The notes beneath the pieces are model-generated. The model did not search any database. It had not been told where the DNA came from and saw only the letters and a program-made list of their open reading frames with translations. Made by a program: the position numbers and the translations under genes. 64,000 nucleotides of DNA from Boletus sp. NGJ (Eukaryota > Basidiomycota > Agaricomycetes > Boletales > Boletaceae): contig JAGTXK010000055.1 of NCBI GenBank assembly GCA_019096195.1, forward strand, positions 434,001 to 498,000. Reading direction: 5' to 3'. Below are positions 25,986-44,092 of this stretch, in pieces. Numbering within the stretch: the stretch's first letter is position 1; every line of letters begins with the position of its first letter.

Positions 25986-28606
25986 ATGTCCAACAATCCT
26001 TCCGCTTCGCAAGAGATTCTTGCTTCAACGCTCTATGTGTCAAGTACGTACGTTTCTGCTGAGTAGACACCACGTCCGACTCATCTCCTCTAGATATTGA
26101 CATCAGCCTTGCGAGGGATTCCCGTAAAACAATCGGATCCATCAAATTGGGGACCAAGAACGTCGAGTTAGTGAAGGATGTGCAGAAAGTCATACGTGCA
26201 GGTGGAATGCACCGGGTAGAATTCGATCCGCCTCTGTAAGGCGTTCCATGTAACTGCATTCCTGCGCGATGGATTGACTACCCTTCAGTCTCCTCGACCC
26301 CGACGATCACGTTTCCGTCTCACTCAGCTGTAGTTTGCGAATGCGCAAGCGAGTAGATGTCGCCATTAACATCAATCTACGTGATGTCGAATGCATGCGT
26401 GGTGAACAAGGCGTAAGATGTTGGTCATTTCAGAACACTTTCACATGGCGTCTTGTCATTCCTTTGTCAATAGCGTATCGGAAAAAGTTAAGGAACATCG
26501 AAGTCGTGGTCACCGGGGTCCTCGACCAGCAGTCGGTATGTAGTTTACAAACTGTTTATACTCGTCCTTCATGCGCTTGTCCAGTTGGTTGCGACTACAA
26601 CTCAAATCATCCAGTCTTGTTCACAGTGAGTTGCGGCTCTTGTAGGTCTCCCTCGTGTACTAAGGCTCGCCTTTAGATTCCGACTTTTGATTATCGGGAA
26701 TGTAATTGTCAATCTTCTTTGGGGTGGAAATTAACTCACCTCGTTCTAGTCAGGCGTCGGTAAATCCTCGTTAATTCGTAGAGTGTTTGGCGTCAAAGAT
26801 GTTGTGAGCGACTCGACCATGTCACACGCTGTATCCTCAACCCACTCTTTCCTTGAAGCACACCTCCGACACCATTCGTGGTAGTGCTGACATTGATCGG
26901 GAGTTTGTCTCTCCGACGAACGAGCGATTCGTGGTTCATGACAGCCTCGGGTTTGAGGCTGGTGATGAAGAAAACATGGACATAGTGAAGGAATTTGTTG
27001 CCAGAAGAAAGGCCATGGCTCGGCTCAAGGATCAGCTTCACGCGGTTTGGTGAGAAGATTCGCTTTATCGATCAGTTCCGCTGACGAAGAGATCCAGGCT
27101 CTGCCTCGAGATACCCTATTCTGGTGGTCGTCTGCTCGAGGCAGGCGTGGAAAAGTTCCTACAACGCAGAAACGAAATTTTGGGCAAGAGTGCGCTGCTT
27201 GTTCTGCGTTGTAACCGCATAACTTACCGACGCTTTGCAGTCCCCCTTGTTGTGGTACTCACGAAAGTGGATTTGCTAGATACGCAGCTGGAGCTTGACC
27301 TGCCGGCAAACGAGGATCCAGAGCACTACAAGTCAAGGTACTTGGACGAACATTGCATCACGCCCCTCCGCAAGGTGGCGGGAAGTGACGTCACGCACGT
27401 CACCGTTTCTTGTACGTCAGAGTGGTGACACGGATTCTTGATGAATCGTTTCTGATAGTACTTTAGCCCAAGATGGTTACTCCGAGTCTCTTTCCTGCCT
27501 TTACAAGGTCACGGACGAGAACATGGCAAAGTATCATGTCGACGAAGCACCGCGGGTCGTCGCCACCATTGCTCAGCGTATCAGCATCAAGGAGAAGCTC
27601 GAATTATCGATTGCGTACGTGTCTTTTGGTACCCGTCTGTTCTAACTTCTCTCAACGTGTTCCGTCATAGCCTTGGGAAGAAAAGTGCGTCGACACTCAA
27701 GAAATCTGTCCAGCGTCTGACGATGCTTATAGGATACTGGAAAACGCTCTGGAAGAGCGCGTTCTTTCGGGGTCACACGTTAAAGGAATGCTTGCAGGTC
27801 ATCCGTAGGGACATTATCACTGTCTGGAACTTCAATGACCCAGATGAGGTACGTTTCCCCTCCCTTGGCATCACCTACTGGAGTGGACCATGTCTCGAAT
27901 ACATCGCAGTGTTTGCTAGACGATAACATCACCGAAGCCTTGCTTCGCATCGACAATCTAGGAGACACCCCCAGTGCACAGTCAAATATGTAAGTGGTCT
28001 GGATCCAACAGGAGCAAATATTTCCCTTCTTTTCTTTCGGGCAGTGCTTGACGAGAGAAATTACCTTTTCAGAGCCTCGTTCGCCGATTTGCTCGTCTCG
28101 GGCTTTGAACTGTTCAAAAACCTCTCGGAATCCGGGGATGTCACACTGATAGCTCTAGCCCCTGCCTTGAGTGCCGTAATATCCGTCGTACAGACGACGT
28201 ACGAAACATACCAAGAGGCGTGCGTAGACTATTGTCAATTCCTTCCCAATGCTCATAAAAATGCTCATTCATTCACTCTAGCAAAAGGGACGTAAAGATC
28301 CTCATGGCGTACATCGTAGACTTGATCTGCGTCATGCAAGCCATCTTCCTCATCGCGTCGGGCGATCGCGTAACCTCGGAGACGGCCGCACTCGCTGTAC
28401 GGGCATACGAGAAACCGAGAAAAATCGTGCACTTGATGGTCGATGCGTTCGATGGGAAATTGGGCGTACTTCCCGGCGGATGGGATCATGTGTTGGAGAA
28501 GATCGAGGCGCTGATATGGCGTCATAGCATCGCAGACCACGAGATTGAAGAGTTGAGGTGGAAGATTGGTGTTGGCCGGGTGGTGTTGCCATCGGATTCC
28601 TCTTGA
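25986..28606 (+). CDS. Lineage-specific P-loop GTPase (G-domain protein), unknown role
   Basis: GTPase-like protein of a type often expanded in Agaricomycetes; I do not know its function. The predicted start MSNNPSASQEILAST leads through a beta-rich N-terminal part (SLARDSRKTIGSIKLGTKNV, RVDVAININLRDVE) to a G domain assembled over short exons: G1 LLIIGNSGVGKSSLIRRVFG (26,690-26,800), G3 VVHDSLGFEAGDEEN, G4 VVLTKVDLLD. A helical C-terminal region follows, including FADLLVSGFELFKNL and the last exon MAYIVDLICVMQAIFL...GKLGVLPGGWDHVLEKIEAL, ending PSDSS. About a dozen exons with GT-AG ends. Parts of the same gene recur as fragments near 35.2 and 40.4 kb, so this is the parental or best-preserved copy here. 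The start is the least certain part. Confidence 0.78.
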
Positions 28607-29055
28607 CTAGCTACTCTACCTACACCGATGATTTGAATCTCAACGAACGTTTTATTTGATGCTATCAACTGATAGATATTTGATCAAGCTGGTCCTGGGA
28701 CGAGTCTAGTCACTTTGCTCTCAGACATATTCGTGCTGCAAGAAGTTCACAAAGAATTCGAAAATGTGCCCGTGAGGTTTCTACACAGGAATACGCCATA
28801 TTCAAGTACTCGTGACATCGTGACCACCGTTCTGGTGCATCGAAAAAGTGGGAACTGCACTGGGAGAGCTGCGGATCCTGATTATCCCGTTTGTGAACCA
28901 AGGGGTTTAAGCCAAAGACAAGTCCCCAGCGCGTGCTCTTCATAAATTCGCAACAATCCCTTGCACAAGCTGTCTTTCCCTGAGGAAAAAAAAACTATGC
29001 TGGAGGGGTATGCAACGAGAAAACAAAAGCTCTGCAGGATGCTCTCAAGATTTGA
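28310..29055 (+). repeat. Segmental duplication, copy 1 (GTPase last exon plus 3' flank)
   Basis: This stretch recurs in the same orientation at 35,150-35,772. Shared runs include gatcatgtgttggaga, gcgctgatatggcgtcatag, ttcgaaaatgtgc, gacatcgtgaccaccgtt, gcgtgctcttcataaattcg and aaaggggttcaagcc-like text. Similarity ends just after ctcaagattt. The second copy lacks about 130 bp corresponding to 28,600-28,730, with the breakpoint at a short shared attc. Confidence 0.85.
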
Positions 29056-30127
29056 GTAAGCACAGTGAATTCAGCAACGATCCTCGAGCTGACAATGTCT
29101 ACATGTCGTTACTCACGATGCGTTCGGTGCTCCGCTCTTGGTCCGGTGCGCACCACGAGCATGAATTATGACGATGCGCGGAAAACAGTGAACGATCATG
29201 AATTTCCTCCGATTCTTCACTGAAGAAGTAGAATGACCTAACGCACCCGTTCACATATGTCTTTAGGCCCGCCACAGACCGATGCAAGACGTTAAACAAG
29301 AGTAAGAGACCGGATTGCAGGCTGCTTTTGTGCTTGGCTCGAACGAAGTGGCTGAAGTCGAGTCACAAAGCGTCGTGGATGCTCATGCTCACACATCCGG
29401 ACCTAAACAAACTGGTTGCCAACAGCAGTGAGAAAACACTAATATAGATCGGTATCACCTTGGACAGCGTGTCTCAAGATAGATGAGGTTCGAGGTACAT
29501 CGATCGGCCTTCCAGAACGCGAGACGTTAACGGAATCTGTCCGAGTCGAGCAACGCAGACTCTTGTCGCCCCCTCGATCGAGGTCGCCAACATGGCCGTT
29601 GAACACATACACCCCTCCACCACCAGGGTTTCCTAGGATTGTGTGAGTGATCCGAGGCCACCGCTAGATTTGGTCAAAAAACATTTGATTGCGCGGGTGT
29701 ACAATTGAGGTACAAGGTCCTCCCCCGCTTCAAGTGCTCCCCTGAAGGGATCGCCAACGTCATCAAATACACTGTGCAGCGCGCACAAACGCGGTTCAAT
29801 CATCCTGCTCGATGACGACGATTCGGGATGAGCTCGGAGAGTAATCATTACTGACCGAGATATGTCAGTGGACAACGAAAACATTCTTGAGGCTTTGTAG
29901 TGAAGTGGCGTTTCGTTCTCCAGCTGGCGGAAGCAAATATCAATTCTCGTTGTCGGGGTAGTGAATTGAGATGATGTACTAGATGATGTAACTTACCAGC
30001 TGCAGTGCTGTAGCCTGTTGGCTTTCGACACGTCACGATCAAGCACAGGGAATCTGACTAAATCCGAGTCGGTCTCCATCGAAGAGTCGCCTACCTCCCT
30101 CTTCTCATCTTCCCGACAGCAGCCAAC
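28607..30127. other. About 1.5 kb without a supported gene
   Basis: Contains the duplicated GTPase 3' flank (to about 29,055) and then 1 kb of unassigned sequence with only short frames. It ends with the pyrimidine-rich promoter of the membrane-protein locus (ccctcttctcatcttccc, 30,096-30,114). The stretch 29,640-29,900 (minus) has a short open frame with no recognisable feature. Confidence 0.4.
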
Positions 30128-32616
30128 ATGGCTGACTTCTATCCTTCAGGTCGTCACAGTAGTGATCGCAGATCAACGTCGTCAAACGAAAATATAACGT
30201 CTACGGTGTGGGAACCAGACCCTTCCAGCGAAAGTGAATAGTAACTCGACATTTTACATCCCGTTAAAATGATGCTAATCATGTGTTTGTCACAGCGCTT
30301 CTCTACAACGATACTCAGGATCACTCCCCAACTGGGGGCGATCGTACTCTTCGCTATCTGTGCTATGGTCTTCATGCTTTCCTCGTCGCCGTCCACATTG
30401 TGCTTGTGGGAATGTTGTTCACCCACCCGGAGCATTCGTTCTCGACCTCAATCAACAACACGGGCGCGAGTATTGCCTTAAGGGTATTTCTCCATGCATT
30501 TTACTTGGTACGTTTGCGCGACCTTTCTGGGTGGATGATGGCGTGACGGCCGTATCGAAAGATATACACTGCAGTTCTGGTGCTCTTGACACAACAACTT
30601 GCGTTGTCCGCTGTCATGGTGCAGTGGCAAAAACTCACAGCCGTACACGATATATCTGGTGCGTGGAACGGAATCGGGGCTGCGATCAATGCTCTATGGC
30701 AGCAAACCAAGATCACATCCTCGCCATCAGCATTGGTCTTGGTCTTCATATACTTGAGCTGCATCTCGAGCTTGCATATCATCTCGTCATCTGTCATCCA
30801 ATTCGAAGCCTTCAACAATACTGTCACAAGTGTCGTTCCATCATCATTAGCATGGACTTCCTCAACTGCCAATCTTTCCACCCTTGATGGGAATAATGTT
30901 GCTCCATTTATGGCATTGTGGCCATTACTGCCGACTGCCAAGGGCCTGTCTGGAAGCACTCTATTTGATGTGCCATCACCTGATTATGCGTACACTGGAG
31001 CTGTTGTGGATGCAACCACCATTAGTGCTGAGTGTGGTCTGCTTTCAAATCTTTCAGTTGGCACATGGAACTCCACTGAGGGGATTTATTATGTTGATGT
31101 AAATGGGCTTGGTGAGGTTGGTTTGCCAGTGGAAGGTATAGAGCATTCCCTAAATCCTATCCCCTTACTAAACATATAAAAACAGAGCTAGTGAACATGG
31201 TAATGTTCATGGGTGAATATTTTGATTATGGGACTTCTGTGAGTGGTTCTCAAAGTTGATCACTACATTATACTGTAAATATTTATGAATGTGATCTAGG
31301 CCTGTTCAATGTGTAACAACTATGTTATCTATCAGGTCACTACTACAATAGAATTGGGCAATCAGACTGGTGAAGTCATTCAAGTCGATCTTGAGGGCCC
31401 AGTTGGGGGTACATGTGAGTTTTGGGTGAACCTTAGATAGGACTTAACTCACTTTCATTAGCAAGTGGTCAACCTGCTAATTTTAATGTTTCAACCACAT
31501 CACATTTTGTTGCATGTACCTTGAATGCAACAACAACTCCTCTTTACCTTTCCATTCAGGATGGAAAGGTGACCAATACTGAATTACTGCCTAACAACAG
31601 TAAAGAAGCTGAACCTTGGACTGTTTGGTCTCCAGGTAACACCACAGAGTTGGTTCATATGGTATGTAGATGTGTTCTGCCTATATTGTCTATTGGCTTA
31701 ATGTTATAATTTAGTTTAATAATGCCCACACCAATATGATGGGTTTGTCATGTCAAGGCCTACAATCCCCTGCAGGAAGTAAGGAATGTACCTTTATGAC
31801 TAATGCCAACCTGTAAGCATTCCTCTTGATATACAACTTCTCTTGAATCAACTGGCAACTTGGTGCTTTCAAACAGTTATACAAATTCACTATTGGGTAT
31901 TCCATGGATTTCTTGGAATTCAACCATAGAAACACCAGCATCACCAATAATTCTTGAGAAAACTAACATGGAGAATGCAATTGCACAAACTGCAGCAGCA
32001 TATATATGGTTGGGTATGTGATAAGCTCACTTTTGATGCTATTGCTACCAACTACTTTTAATCATGATTGCATAATCAATAGCAGGTGCAATTGGAGTTG
32101 ATAATGGGGGTTTCCAGCAAGATCAAGGGGAGAGTTTAATAAGCTATGACAATCTTGAATTCAGGTTGAATGTATGTATATATTTTATTTCTTTGCAAGT
32201 TGATTCCTTGACCTTTCCACAGGTAACCACTACACCTGTAAGCATCATCCAATGTTATGTGCAGAGCATGATATAACCACTTGAAGGTTGTCATTGGCTT
32301 GTTTGCTTCATCCATGCTCTTGGCTACTGTGGTTTGGATGTTTCATCATTCACAACCAACACATTTCAAGGCATCAATAACCTTGAATACCCTGGGATTG
32401 ATCTATACATCTGGCCACTCCACTAGCTTGCAAGAATTCATGAAGACTGGCAATTCTCTGCCAGACCAATTGAGGCTAATGGGGATGAAAGCTGAAGTTT
32501 GTCTTGCTAACATGAAATCTGAACCAATCAGACTTCTTGGAAGTACAGATTATAATCTTCAGATGGATGCAAATTCCCATGCCCCTAGTGGGCATATTTC
32601 AGAAGGTTCATCTTAG
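30128..32616 (+). CDS. N-glycosylated multi-pass membrane protein, module A (unrecognised)
   Basis: No known family recognised. Predicted exons begin 30128-30233, 30296-30507, 30562-31135, followed by short exons to 32616. Features: a cytosolic head (MADFYPSGRHSSDRRSTSS), TM1 LCYGLHAFLVAVHIVLVGML, TM2 IYTAVLVLLTQQLALSAVMV, then WNGIGAAINALWQQTK, TM3 SALVLVFIYLSCISSLHII, a large ectodomain with many N-x-S/T sites (NNT, NLS, NST, NQT, NVS, NAT), a late TM VIGLFASSMLLATVVWMF and a short tail. Module B repeats the plan. The first 0.75 kb has normal CpG content; the rest is almost CpG-free. The tail may not be a true end: see module B. Confidence 0.65.
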
Positions 32617-33555
32617 TTCATTCCTGTATGCAACCATAATCTACTTTTTCTTGCAGAACAATTCTTCATGCATTGGCTATGCTATGGCCTTCATGCCATT
32701 CTTCTTGCATTCCATGTGGTTTTAGTTCTCCTTCTCATACAACATCCAGAACACCATGTCATAATGGCATCTGACAATCCTTGGGTGACAACAGTTTTGA
32801 GTGTATCACTTCAAGCATTCTATGTGGTAGGTCATTCACTATGCTTGTTCCACCCAAAAGTATCAACCTTGCCCTTGAATTCAGCTATATACTGCTGGGC
32901 TGGTGTTTATTACACAGCAACTAGCAATATCAGCTATTATTGCACAAAGGCATTATTTGACAACAGTAAATGATATTGCTCAGGCATGGACTGGCATTGG
33001 AGCTGCTGTTTATGCTTTTTGGCAACAAACCAAAGTAGCATCATCTACTTGGACCATACTTGGTGTGGTGTCCTACCTGGCATGTGTCTTCACTCTTCAG
33101 ACAGCCTCCACTACCATCATGCAGTTCACAGCTTTCAACAGTAGTTCCATAATCACTATCCAGTCAGCAATAGCCTTGCCAAATGCCACTGTTCTTGTAA
33201 ATGGAACCTGGCCAGGGACATTTCAAGGTATACCACCCAGCAATTTGCTTTCCAATGTCCAGACCACTGGTCTACTCAACAATACACTCTATGATATCTT
33301 AACCACCACTGATTCCAGCTTTACAAATGCCACTGTAAATGCCACTGCCCTCCAAGCCAATTGTGGGCTGTTGTCAAATGTCACCTATAACTCTTTCAAC
33401 TTTTCTGCCAATGGCTTTGGTTCTGGGACATTTGAACTTTATGTGAATAGTGAGTTTTTCAAATAGAGCATGAAATATTGTGAATTATACTTGCCTCTTC
33501 ACAATCCAGACAGCCCCCTAACAGGACAAGTTGTAAGAAATCAGATTGACTTTAT
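31388..33555. other. CpG void (no CG dinucleotide in about 2.17 kb)
   Basis: I read every line of this interval and found no CG, although GC content is roughly 40% and flanking genes are full of CG. The wider interval 31,388-35,020 holds only about five (near 33,557, 34,117, 34,379, 34,814 and 34,891). TG and CA are abundant, as expected if methylated CpG decayed to TpG/CpA. The void covers coding exons that still read as protein. Confidence 0.9.
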
Positions 33556-34832
33556 GCGAGTTGATTATACTTTCAATGTAACTACTAATTTCCCCCTCTG
33601 AAATAGCATTTCAAAAGGATAACTTACTTCCCACTAGTTTTCTCCTGGATGCTCATCATGTTCATCACCCCTCCTTTTTCTAATCACAACTGGCATTGTG
33701 TTGGATGAATCAATTTCTAATAGTGCAGTCAGTGTTAATATTGCACAAGGTAAGATTTACTGAATACTAAAATATTTAATTTTGTGAGAATTTCATCTAT
33801 TTGCTATAGATGATAATGATCCAATTATGGCATATATTGCTGCCTGCACTTTGACATCACAAACCACAAATGCCACCCTGGATCTTCAGACTGACACTCT
33901 CATTCCAAGTTCAACTCAAGGAAGTTCACAACCTTGGCAGCTGTGGACCCCAGGCACAGAAGGATCTTCAGATCTTTCATTTCTTGTAAGATAAATGTTG
34001 GTTCAAAGTATAAAAATAGTCTGCTGACATGGATGGTTAGGCTAGTGCAATATTCTTTAATGATGGATTTGGAGTCTGCCCACAAAATAATTTTACAGCA
34101 TGCCTAATGAATGGAACGTATGTTTCAATCTGACCATTCTTTATTACTCAGACCTGTCTGACTGCTGTGAGCAGTGCATCACTCTCAGTAGCAAATAGCT
34201 CCCTTTATACACTTACTCCAAACCAGTTGCAGCAGGCTATTGAAAACTCTATAGCTGCAATAATTTGGACAGGTAAGTATGTACTAGCACATTTAATCTA
34301 TCTCATTACTTTTTATTTGTTATTCTTAATTGGTACTGGATAGCTGGTCAATTGGGATCAAACCAAGGAGAATTTGATCGCATGACTGGTGAAAGTCAAG
34401 TCACACAGGTGATTACTGAATGGAGATTGAATGTGAGTGCAACAATTGCTCAAATGAAGTGTCCTTTGCTAAAGTAGCATGACAGATCAATGTGGTTCCA
34501 GTTAGAGTTGCATCTATATCTCCCTTCACAAAGATCTTATTTTCTTTTAGGTTGTATTTGCTTCAACAGCATCACTAATTCTCTTCATATTGGTATTTTT
34601 TTTGATCAGAATCCCCTCAAAATTGGCACACCATGGCTCATCCATTACTGGACTGAGTGTCCTGGAAACACTCTGGATTGCAGCACATTCCCAGACTTTG
34701 TGTGAAAACATCACAGTTGTCAATGACCCATCACTGGATCATCTAAGAAGGGTGGGAATGTTCAAAGTGTGTCTTGGCAGTATAAGAGGCTCTCAATCTG
34801 ATGAAGCTGAGAGCGAGACTTTCCTGGAATGA
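32657..34832 (+). CDS. N-glycosylated multi-pass membrane protein, module B (tandem paralogue of module A)
   Basis: Same architecture as module A: TM1 LCYGLHAILLAFHVVLVLLL, TM2 LYTAGLVFITQQLAISAIIA, AWTGIGAAVYAFWQQTK, TM3 TILGVVSYLACVFTLQTAS, sequon-rich ectodomain (NSS, NAT, NGT, NNT, NVT, NFS), TM4 VVFASTASLILFILVFFLI and tail ending ESETFLE. Intron positions mirror module A, for example before (I/L)YTA. It has no counterpart of module A exon 1. Its first exon begins right after a good acceptor (ttcttgcag, to 32656), only 40 bp after module A's apparent stop. It may therefore be spliced to module A as one double-length protein, or may start at the internal ATG in FFMHWL. The whole module is nearly free of CpG. 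Confidence 0.6.
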
Positions 34833-35149
34833 AGAGGTGAGTTTTTCACACACTCTCATTCTGAGTACCAATTCATGCATGCATAACTGACGCAGAACTC
34901 AAAATTGCATTCCAATTGGCATGCAATGATACCTGATGATGTGGATATGTGATTTCTTGCCTTTGATGTCATAGAATTGAAACTGTTGTTGTTCTTCATT
35001 TTTGGTTGATCATAAATCATAATGGCCTTCCGTCAATCGAGGAGTGACTGCTGCTGAATGACAGCTCTTCAGTTAGATCCACCTGCATTTTATTGGCCAA
35101 GAGACTTAAGAATTAGATGAGCAACAGTAGTGAATAGTGACTCTCTAAC

Positions 35150-35460
35150 GGCGTGTGCACTGCGTGGGATGTCCGGCGGTGGGTGGATAAGATACACGCA
35201 GTCAATAACGAGACAGGTAACGCGAATGAACCTCAGACGGCCGCGCACGTCGTATGGGCGTACGATAAACCCAGAAGGATCGTACACTTATTGGTCAATG
35301 GGTTAGATGGGAAATTAGGCGTGCTTCCCGGCGGGCGGGATCATGTGTTGGAGACGATCTAGGCGCTGATATGGCGTCATAGCATCACAGATCATGAGAT
35401 TGAAGACTCGGAGTTGAGGCGGAAGATTGGTGTTGGTCGGGTGTTGCCATCGGATTCTTC
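35150..35460 (+). pseudogene. Dead 3' fragment of a second GTPase gene copy
   Basis: Matches the last exon of the GTPase at 25,986-28,606: RRIVHLLVNGLDGKLGVLPG here against RKIVHLMVDAFDGKLGVLPG there. The frame stops at ETI-TAG (35,360) where the intact gene reads EKIEAL, and a 4-nt insertion (ctcg near 35,408) follows before the stretch matching LRWKIGVGRV. No upstream G domain is attached. Confidence 0.8.
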
Positions 35461-35772
35461 GTGCTGCAAGAAGATCACAGAGCATTCGAAAATGTGCGAA
35501 GAATGCGCGATATTCAAGTAGTGACATCGTGACCACCGTTCCGGTGCGTCGAAAAAGTGGGAATTGCACTGGGAGAACCGTGGATCCTGATTATTTGTTT
35601 GTGAACCAAGGGGTTCAAGCCGACGACAAGTGTCCAGCGCGTGCTCTTCATAAATTCGCAATGATCCCTTTCACAAGTTGTCTTTCCCTGAGAACAAAAA
35701 AATAAAAATAAAACATGTTGCAGGGGTATGCAACGAGAACACAAAAGCGCTGACGGTCTCAAGATTTAAGCA
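35150..35772 (+). repeat. Segmental duplication, copy 2
   Basis: Diverged second copy of 28,310-29,055 in direct orientation, with an internal deletion of about 130 bp and many substitutions. It lies just right of the CpG-poor membrane locus, so the duplicated segments bracket that locus. Confidence 0.85.
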
Positions 35773-40640: not shown

Positions 40641-41848
40641 CGCAGGCATTGCATCCCAATGGACAAACCTGATCGAGCGATCCAACGTGCTGAGGAACTT
40701 TTTCAAAGAACGTGCCAATCGAGTGGTCACCCATGTTGACGGTTTTAGTCCCCCCTGTTCGCCCCGTGAAGCCTCCCCTTTGTCGGTCATTTACCGCAAC
40801 AGATGCAACCTGAAGCGAGAACGTTACTGGCACGTGGTCACGGAAGGGATGTGTCTCTTACCATCATAAACAATACTGTGATCCATCTGACAATTTCATG
40901 ACTGCTCTTCTTTCTACCAGGCTGGCCAGAATAGCAAGTTAAGTTGCACATTGTGTCATATAGGAGGGAGTGATCAAAGTTACTATGGATGTACAGCCAT
41001 CCTTTGTTTTATCATGGCTAGTACATCAAACTGATGATCATGTGATCACTCTTCACCCTACTTTGGATATTACAGTGAGTGAGTTGTCCATCATGATATG
41101 CATATTGGTAAGAGTGACTGAGGTAATGATTTCTTTATCCTGCTCCATCAATCATAGGTGAGTTGTACATAGCAGCATGCTGAACAGATCCAACAGAGTG
41201 ATTGTGCTGATGGTCCCCTGTCTAATCTTTATCCTGCTCTAAGAATCATAGATGGCGAGTTACCTTTTTAATTAGAAAATAATATTTTTAAATCTTACAA
41301 GATCTTGCTCTTCATGTAGTGTCAAGAGGCTTGTCTATATCTCATCACTTATTGAATTAATGATTTTACAACTTTCAGCTACTAGTCACTGGGAATAAGG
41401 CATGTGATTCTTTTTTCAATTCAGTGTTAAGTGTTAATATTTTATAAACAGACCTTTGTTACTGGAAATATGGCAAAAGCATCCCATGAGCCTCCTCAAC
41501 CATAATTCTGCAGTAGGTTATTACTTCAAGTCTTTTAAATGGAAGTTCAAAAAGGGGAGATCAACAGAAGAGTAGCAAGGAAAACCTTGGAAACAAAGAA
41601 TGGTTGAAAATACATCATGGGTGGAATCTTCATATAAATCTAGTGTTTGTCCATGCAGGAAGAAATACATTCTTGGCAACTGTCTTTCAGTCTAAATGAT
41701 AAACTCCAGAGCCAAGACCCTGTCCAATAATACCATCTGACCCTTCACAATATTACTAACATCAGGAAACTCTGAAGTATTGAGATGAGTCAAGTATATT
41801 ATATCTAGTCTATTGAATGGATGTTCACATCAAATAGAATGTCATTGA

Positions 41849-44092
<2,244 letters not shown>

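Follow-up and report, generated by a model that had tools for sequence, protein, structure and literature searches.

The window analysed here, a 64,000-nucleotide stretch of the 32.8-Mb genome of Boletus sp. NGJ, lies on a contig that we call C22 and carries on its forward strand a predicted membrane-protein gene of many exons and two modules, which runs from an ATG at 30128 to a likely stop at 34832. We modelled the gene with GT-AG introns and obtained exons E1-E11 in phase and open over 844 residues. E1 (30128-30233), E2 (30296-30507) and the start of E3 make up the 5' part of the gene (30128-30834), where CpG is normal. E3 (30562-31135), in module 1, holds the left edge of a CpG void that overlies most of the gene. 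The rest of module 1 (31352-32605) lies in the void and consists of E4-E9 (31352-31414, 31462-31661, 31715-31812, 31877-32013, 32083-32171 and 32287-32605). Module 2 starts, also in the void, with E10 (32657-32826) and E11 (32885-33449), together spanning 32657-33449 and homologous to E2 and E3. Its remainder (33810-34832) includes E14 (33810-33985), E17 (34344-34432) and E18 (34551-34832), which ends with the stop at 34832; these three exons are open in all three genomic copies of the gene (see below). The joined model of E14-E18 is not open (4, 3 and 1 stops, the end stop counted), E15 being the part that is wrong. E12, E13, E15 and E16 are provisional.

The modules are tandem at the protein level: E2 aligns with E10 at 48% identity (54 residues) and E3 with E11 at 40% (176 residues). 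For the most part the exons still read open, and exons of the two paralogous modules match, as the original prediction had it. Three hydrophobic blocks open each module, one more lies ahead of the end of module 1, and the modelled part contains 21 N-glycosylation sequons. Pfam returned no family for the four exon pieces searched, Rfam no match within the window, and one scan of viral contigs no relative of the gene. By its exon structure and copy number the gene is not a transposon; it is nevertheless present in three copies. The donor before E10 (GTTCAT) is weak, yet donor, acceptor and frame are kept in all three, and an alternative stop at the module join of the window copy is not kept across copies. 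From the sequence, the two modules would belong to one transcript. A duplication of 0.5-0.65 kb, in pieces 84-93% identical, brackets the gene cassette at 28380-29034 and 35235-35752; a DNA search revealed no third place in the genome.

A CpG-free stretch had been predicted at 31388-33555, with 80-90 CpG expected at about 40% GC and about five CpG up to 35,020. Counting agreed on each point: these 2168 bp (40.2% GC) contain 0 CpG, against 86.8 expected from their own C and G counts, and exactly five CpG occur up to 35020, at 33557, 34117, 34379, 34814 and 34891. The window has no longer interval without CpG than the one around this stretch, from 31386 to 33557. We rejected chance as the cause, since 2000 mononucleotide shuffles of 31388-33555 contained 63-111 CpG each. 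The whole void is longer than predicted and spans about 30.84-31.0 to 35.03-35.15 kb. Its core at 30990-35030, without strand, contains 31388-33555 and holds 6 CpG in about 4 kb; two-state segmentation placed the void at 30835-35148, with 10 CpG against 170.5 expected. Besides exons, it takes in introns and the 3' end and flank of the gene.

In 30990-35030, CpG observed/expected was 0.04, compared with 1.03 in the 56,800 bp of normal window. This is nowhere near the average, and the original prediction stands on this check. TG and CA were plentiful, as had been noted, at 1.53 and 1.56 (1.10 each in the same 56,800 bp), and GpC was not depleted (1.07). CpG was therefore down, TpG and CpA were both up and GpC was undepleted, the pattern expected of a footprint of methylation and deamination. 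The void has about 40% GC and its flanks about 51%, a fall that exceeds what CpG loss alone would bring (to about 45% by our estimate). CpG is normal over the first 0.7-0.95 kb downstream of the ATG at 30128. The predicted sharp boundary at 30.9-31.4 kb proved fairly sharp, but the void begins at about 30.84-31.0 kb; exons 1 and 2 do have normal CpG, but the edge does not coincide with the end of exon 2 and falls within exon 3. The prediction missed another, smaller void without strand, which segmentation placed at 40842-41962 outside the gene (2 CpG against 38.4 expected). Parts of it match three places at C3:578-580 kb with 67-80% identity, perhaps as a decayed repeat. In total 220,130 bp were segmented, of which 164,000 were chosen around the three gene copies and are not a random genome sample.

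Used as a DNA query of the genome, the void found itself, C3:56737-60773 (79%) and C56:171080-175199 (78-79%, in two pieces). We refer to the window copy as C22 and to its sister copies as C3 and C56, which are dispersed and 77-82% identical. The gene cassette common to C22 and C3 covers 30123-35044 on the forward strand (80% identity), and homology with C56 covers 30017-35194 on the same strand (77-82%, in two pieces). In C3 and C56 the CpG void covers the same part of the gene as in C22. In window coordinates, the change points fell at 30835 in C22 (support 30805-31015), 31030 in C56 (31030-31068) and 31085 in C3 (30921-31125), and segmentation put the left edges at 30835, 30921 (C56) and 30922 (C3). 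The edge therefore agrees within about 250 bp across the copies, not to the base. The footprint, which is mutational and not methylation itself, thus covers the gene body and spares the promoter-proximal end in all three copies. The spared first 0.7-0.95 kb of the cassette is CpG-normal and 82-87% identical among them. Just upstream of the C56 copy, a partial extra copy of the gene's 5' part (C56:169371-169731, about 67-69% identical) also has normal CpG.

The void ends at most about 110 bp from the end of the cassette at C22 and C3, while the C56 void continues to 178816 across Tc1-like transposase ORFs. Beyond the end of the C22 void, five CpG of C22 at 35149-35177 correspond to TG or CA in C56 (5/5), and of two further C22 CpG aligned to C56, that at 35031 is TG and that at 35038 lies opposite a gap (all by eye). 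At C3 the gene is the sole void in 40 kb, so that spread from a transposon is unneeded there; at C22 the sole other void within 84 kb lies 5.7 kb off.

E1-E11 are stop-free in C22 and C3, with GT-AG splice sites apart from one GC-AG in each. In the C56 copy (C56:170-175 kb), exon 3 has changed in length, which breaks the frame, and exon 5 carries an insert with a stop. CpG decay without loss of coding is thus borne out for E1-E11 in two copies, the third being broken. In the void, dN/dS was 0.46 for C22-C3 (766 codons), 0.42 for C22-C56 (702) and 0.37 for C56-C3 (711); in the spared part it was 0.34, 0.26 and 0.43, respectively (223 codons each). These comparisons omitted the start of E3, codons at 30928-30990, intron-split codons, E12, E13, E15 and E16, and, wherever C56 was involved, exon 5. 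The values of 0.37-0.46 suggest that the gene may be in use. Void introns are 81-84% identical without gaps, and void exons are just slightly better conserved. Selection is supported for C22 and C3 but, C56 being broken, not for every copy, and dN/dS is not very low. The CpG loss is also seen in codon choice: CGN arginine codons number 4/223 in the spared part and 1/770 in the C22 void, NCG codons 15 and 0 among the same 223 and 770 codons, and arginine codons of all kinds 6/223 and 10/770. A comparison of NCG codons between module 1 and module 2 had too few sites.

If each copy had decayed separately, at about three-quarters of the sites a TG in one would face a CA in another. Within 31101-35030, we found 465 columns in which the three copies agree in having TG or in having CA (228 for GT/AC), and 19 mirrored TG/CA columns, compared with 5 for the GT/AC control. 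Barring strong gene conversion, most of the CpG loss is therefore older than the copying. Raw counts of mirrored pairs (27 vs 10, 24 vs 9 and 15 vs 0) favour some decay after copying before scaling; scaled to the pool, however, the excess is not significant (19/465 vs 5/228, P 0.27), and we rejected it as proof. Evidence of continued purging thus comes from CpG gains in single copies. In the void (31101-35030) these numbered 4/469, against 23/251 for GpC gains in the same stretch (Fisher P 6e-8) and against 15/97 for CpG gains in the spared 5' part at 30123-30830 (Fisher P 3e-9). GpC gains in the 5' part were 5 against 65, and CpG gains in the edge zone (30831-31100) 7 against 34. These counts, which pool the three places, show that CpG purging continued after copying in the gene body and not in the 5' part.

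Voids elsewhere were often transposons; that they always are is not provable. From a longer list, 20 ORFs lying in voids were picked by hand, and 8 passed the Pfam cut-off for a transposon family while 12 did not; the classes were Tc3-type HTH (three times), tnp2, Plavaka, DDE_1, DDE_3 and gag. The transposon-bearing void DNA has the same CpG signature as the gene. Among 150 RVT_1 matches scored from 471 candidates, 64 contained stops. The 108 stops within them comprised 98 TGA, 7 TAG and 3 TAA, a bias that is a sign of CGA to TGA change, as expected in copies free of selection.

The genome has candidate machinery for such a process. DNA_methylase (PF00145) gave five matches above cut-off on three contigs, namely C22 (two, 1 kb apart), C45 (two) and C102, and Tet_JBP gave 23 matches, 18 of them above cut-off. 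Pfam was applied to three of the five methyltransferase loci: BAH was above cut-off in L026 and BAH-like sequence below cut-off in L028, and the three ORFs of L025 had no BAH. Overall CpG observed/expected was 0.97-1.13 in the five methyltransferase loci. Two methyltransferase-like loci, L024 (C45:227 kb) and L026 (C45:256 kb), lie about 29 kb apart and share a long stretch of identical protein sequence, and L024 has seven stops inside its methyltransferase match.

The data show the CpG loss, its common extent, its age relative to the copying (strong gene conversion aside), the later deficit of CpG gains and the open exons. Together these are probably what CpG methylation of the gene body, kept up for long in the inherited cell line, has left behind, with deamination of 5mC as the presumed cause of the loss. 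The original prediction had offered lasting methylation and 5mC deamination as the simplest reading, and the CpG loss, the rise in TG and CA and the spared 5' end support it. CpG in the body and 3' end of the gene would have been methylated in the inherited line, probably by a DNMT1-type enzyme, and each methylated CpG would have become TpG or CpA when 5mC turned to T. The promoter-proximal 0.7-0.95 kb would have stayed open and unmethylated, for which open promoter chromatin may be the reason, and selection would have weeded out protein-breaking changes, so that two of the three copies still have all modelled exons of E1-E11 open. The methylated state would predate the copying to two other places, where the cassettes would have re-formed the pattern, keeping the state and roughly its 5' edge. 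Because state and edge were kept, the simplest target would be the gene itself, through its sequence or chromatin, and not the DNA around it. More tentatively, this could be promoter-sparing gene-body CpG methylation in a basidiomycete, its extent set by the gene, with the methylated body and nearly the same edge kept at three separate places long after copying and at least two copies in use, a fuller reading that we hold to be possible but doubtful.

The main rival to gene-body methylation is a RIP-like or MIP-like process, in which duplications are sensed during the sexual cycle and the CpG within them is methylated or mutated as that of a repeat, not of a gene body. We take this to be a minority possibility. 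It would account for a gene with three copies and an internal duplication, for a void that closes within about 110 bp of the cassette end at C22 and C3 and for other voids with transposon ORFs, and in PMC4352252 the CpG signatures of basidiomycete transposons are put down to a proposed MIP-like process involving a Masc2-like enzyme. Yet the repetition extends equally to the first 0.7-0.95 kb of the cassette, which remains CpG-normal, and most of the loss is older than the three copies. The extra copy on C56 also lies in normal CpG, though it matches the spared part only. RIP itself would change C to T preferentially at CpA and hit the whole duplicated length with many stops; here CA is raised (1.56), the 5' end is spared, E1-E11 of C22 and C3 have no stop, and the damage in C56 amounts to a frame break plus a single stop, in exon 5. 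Speculatively, repeat sensing could have begun the state when the two modules arose. The gene could also be a silenced multicopy gene that is methylated like transposons and unused, its open exons a leftover of recent decay, which we judge somewhat unlikely. The broken C56 copy and exons conserved little better than introns fit such silencing, but the CpG loss is old, E1-E11 nevertheless stay open in C22 and C3, and each of the three pairs has a dN/dS below 0.5.

Methylation that spread from a neighbouring transposon would fit the C56 void, with its extension to 178816 over transposase ORFs, but it is very unlikely: the isolation of the void at C3 and the 5.7-kb distance to the nearest other void at C22 speak against it, as does a void that begins at nearly the same point of the gene in all three copies. 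Constraint from protein or codons, or selection against CpG in RNA, is more improbable still. Arginine is indeed scarcer in the void, but introns and the 3' flank are void as well, and transposon-bearing DNA has the same signature. CpG is normal in those exons of module 1 whose module 2 homologues are void, and also in a distant relative of 30% identity from this genome (0.87-1.41 per 250-bp step), which disfavours protein constraint. This relative is found at two loci, C31 and C80, in a match with two stops, perhaps introns; the 3.5-kb loci (C31:73.8 kb and C80:52.2 kb) are identical, which points to a recent duplication or an assembly double. Uptake of DNA from a CpG-poor organism, which the 40% GC against 51% in the flanks might suggest, is scarcely credible, for a single open frame runs through exon 3, where the edge lies, the 5' part is CpG-normal in every copy, and other contigs carry voids with different ORFs.

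Footprints of this kind have precedents. Methylation of transposons and multicopy paralogues is known from mushroom-forming fungi (PMC8889193). The present case is like those paralogues in its DNA_methylase and many TET/JBP genes, in the CG context and in the targeting of a low-copy paralogous gene set besides transposons; it differs in being known from the mutational footprint alone, in having E1-E11 open in two of three copies and in sparing the 5' end at the same place in all three. Three basidiomycetes are described in parts of PMC4352252 as having CpG-only signatures and a Masc2-like gene and no RID, and the CpG-only C-to-T signatures of their transposons are tied there to a Masc2-like Dnmt1. 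The decay of CpG to TpG and CpA without a CpA signature is shared with the transposon copies treated in those parts, whereas the void gene is not a transposon and is under some selection. In Rhizoctonia solani AG8, hypermutation biased towards CpG is reported for both genes and repeats (PMC4014442) and likewise reaches protein-coding genes of an Agaricomycete, but the SNPs described there are genome-wide between nuclei, and the loss here is local, nearly complete and has edges.

According to PMC7862722 and PMC13297926, 5mC in fungi lies chiefly on transposons and most fungi lack gene-body methylation, U. reesii and M. robertsii being among the exceptions; the latter paper states that it was for the most part lost in fungi, perhaps owing to the mutation of coding DNA by 5mC. 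The void resembles gene-body methylation of animals and plants in affecting the body and 3' end, in sparing the promoter-proximal end and in its CG context, and differs from it in the sister copies, in the few such genes within the sampled stretches and in being seen as a footprint alone. Our literature search found no title on a common promoter-sparing CpG void over open coding sequence, which is weak evidence of absence as most subscription journals were outside its scope. The process is thus a known one, and the variant here is the promoter-sparing footprint common to three copies, a form that merits a methylation assay. The coding sequence seems to have paid the mutational cost of 5mC nearly in full and is nevertheless open in two copies. 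Two questions follow: is the starting point of methylation in fungi dictated by the sequence of the gene, and does a fungal gene remain usable when it is heavily methylated?
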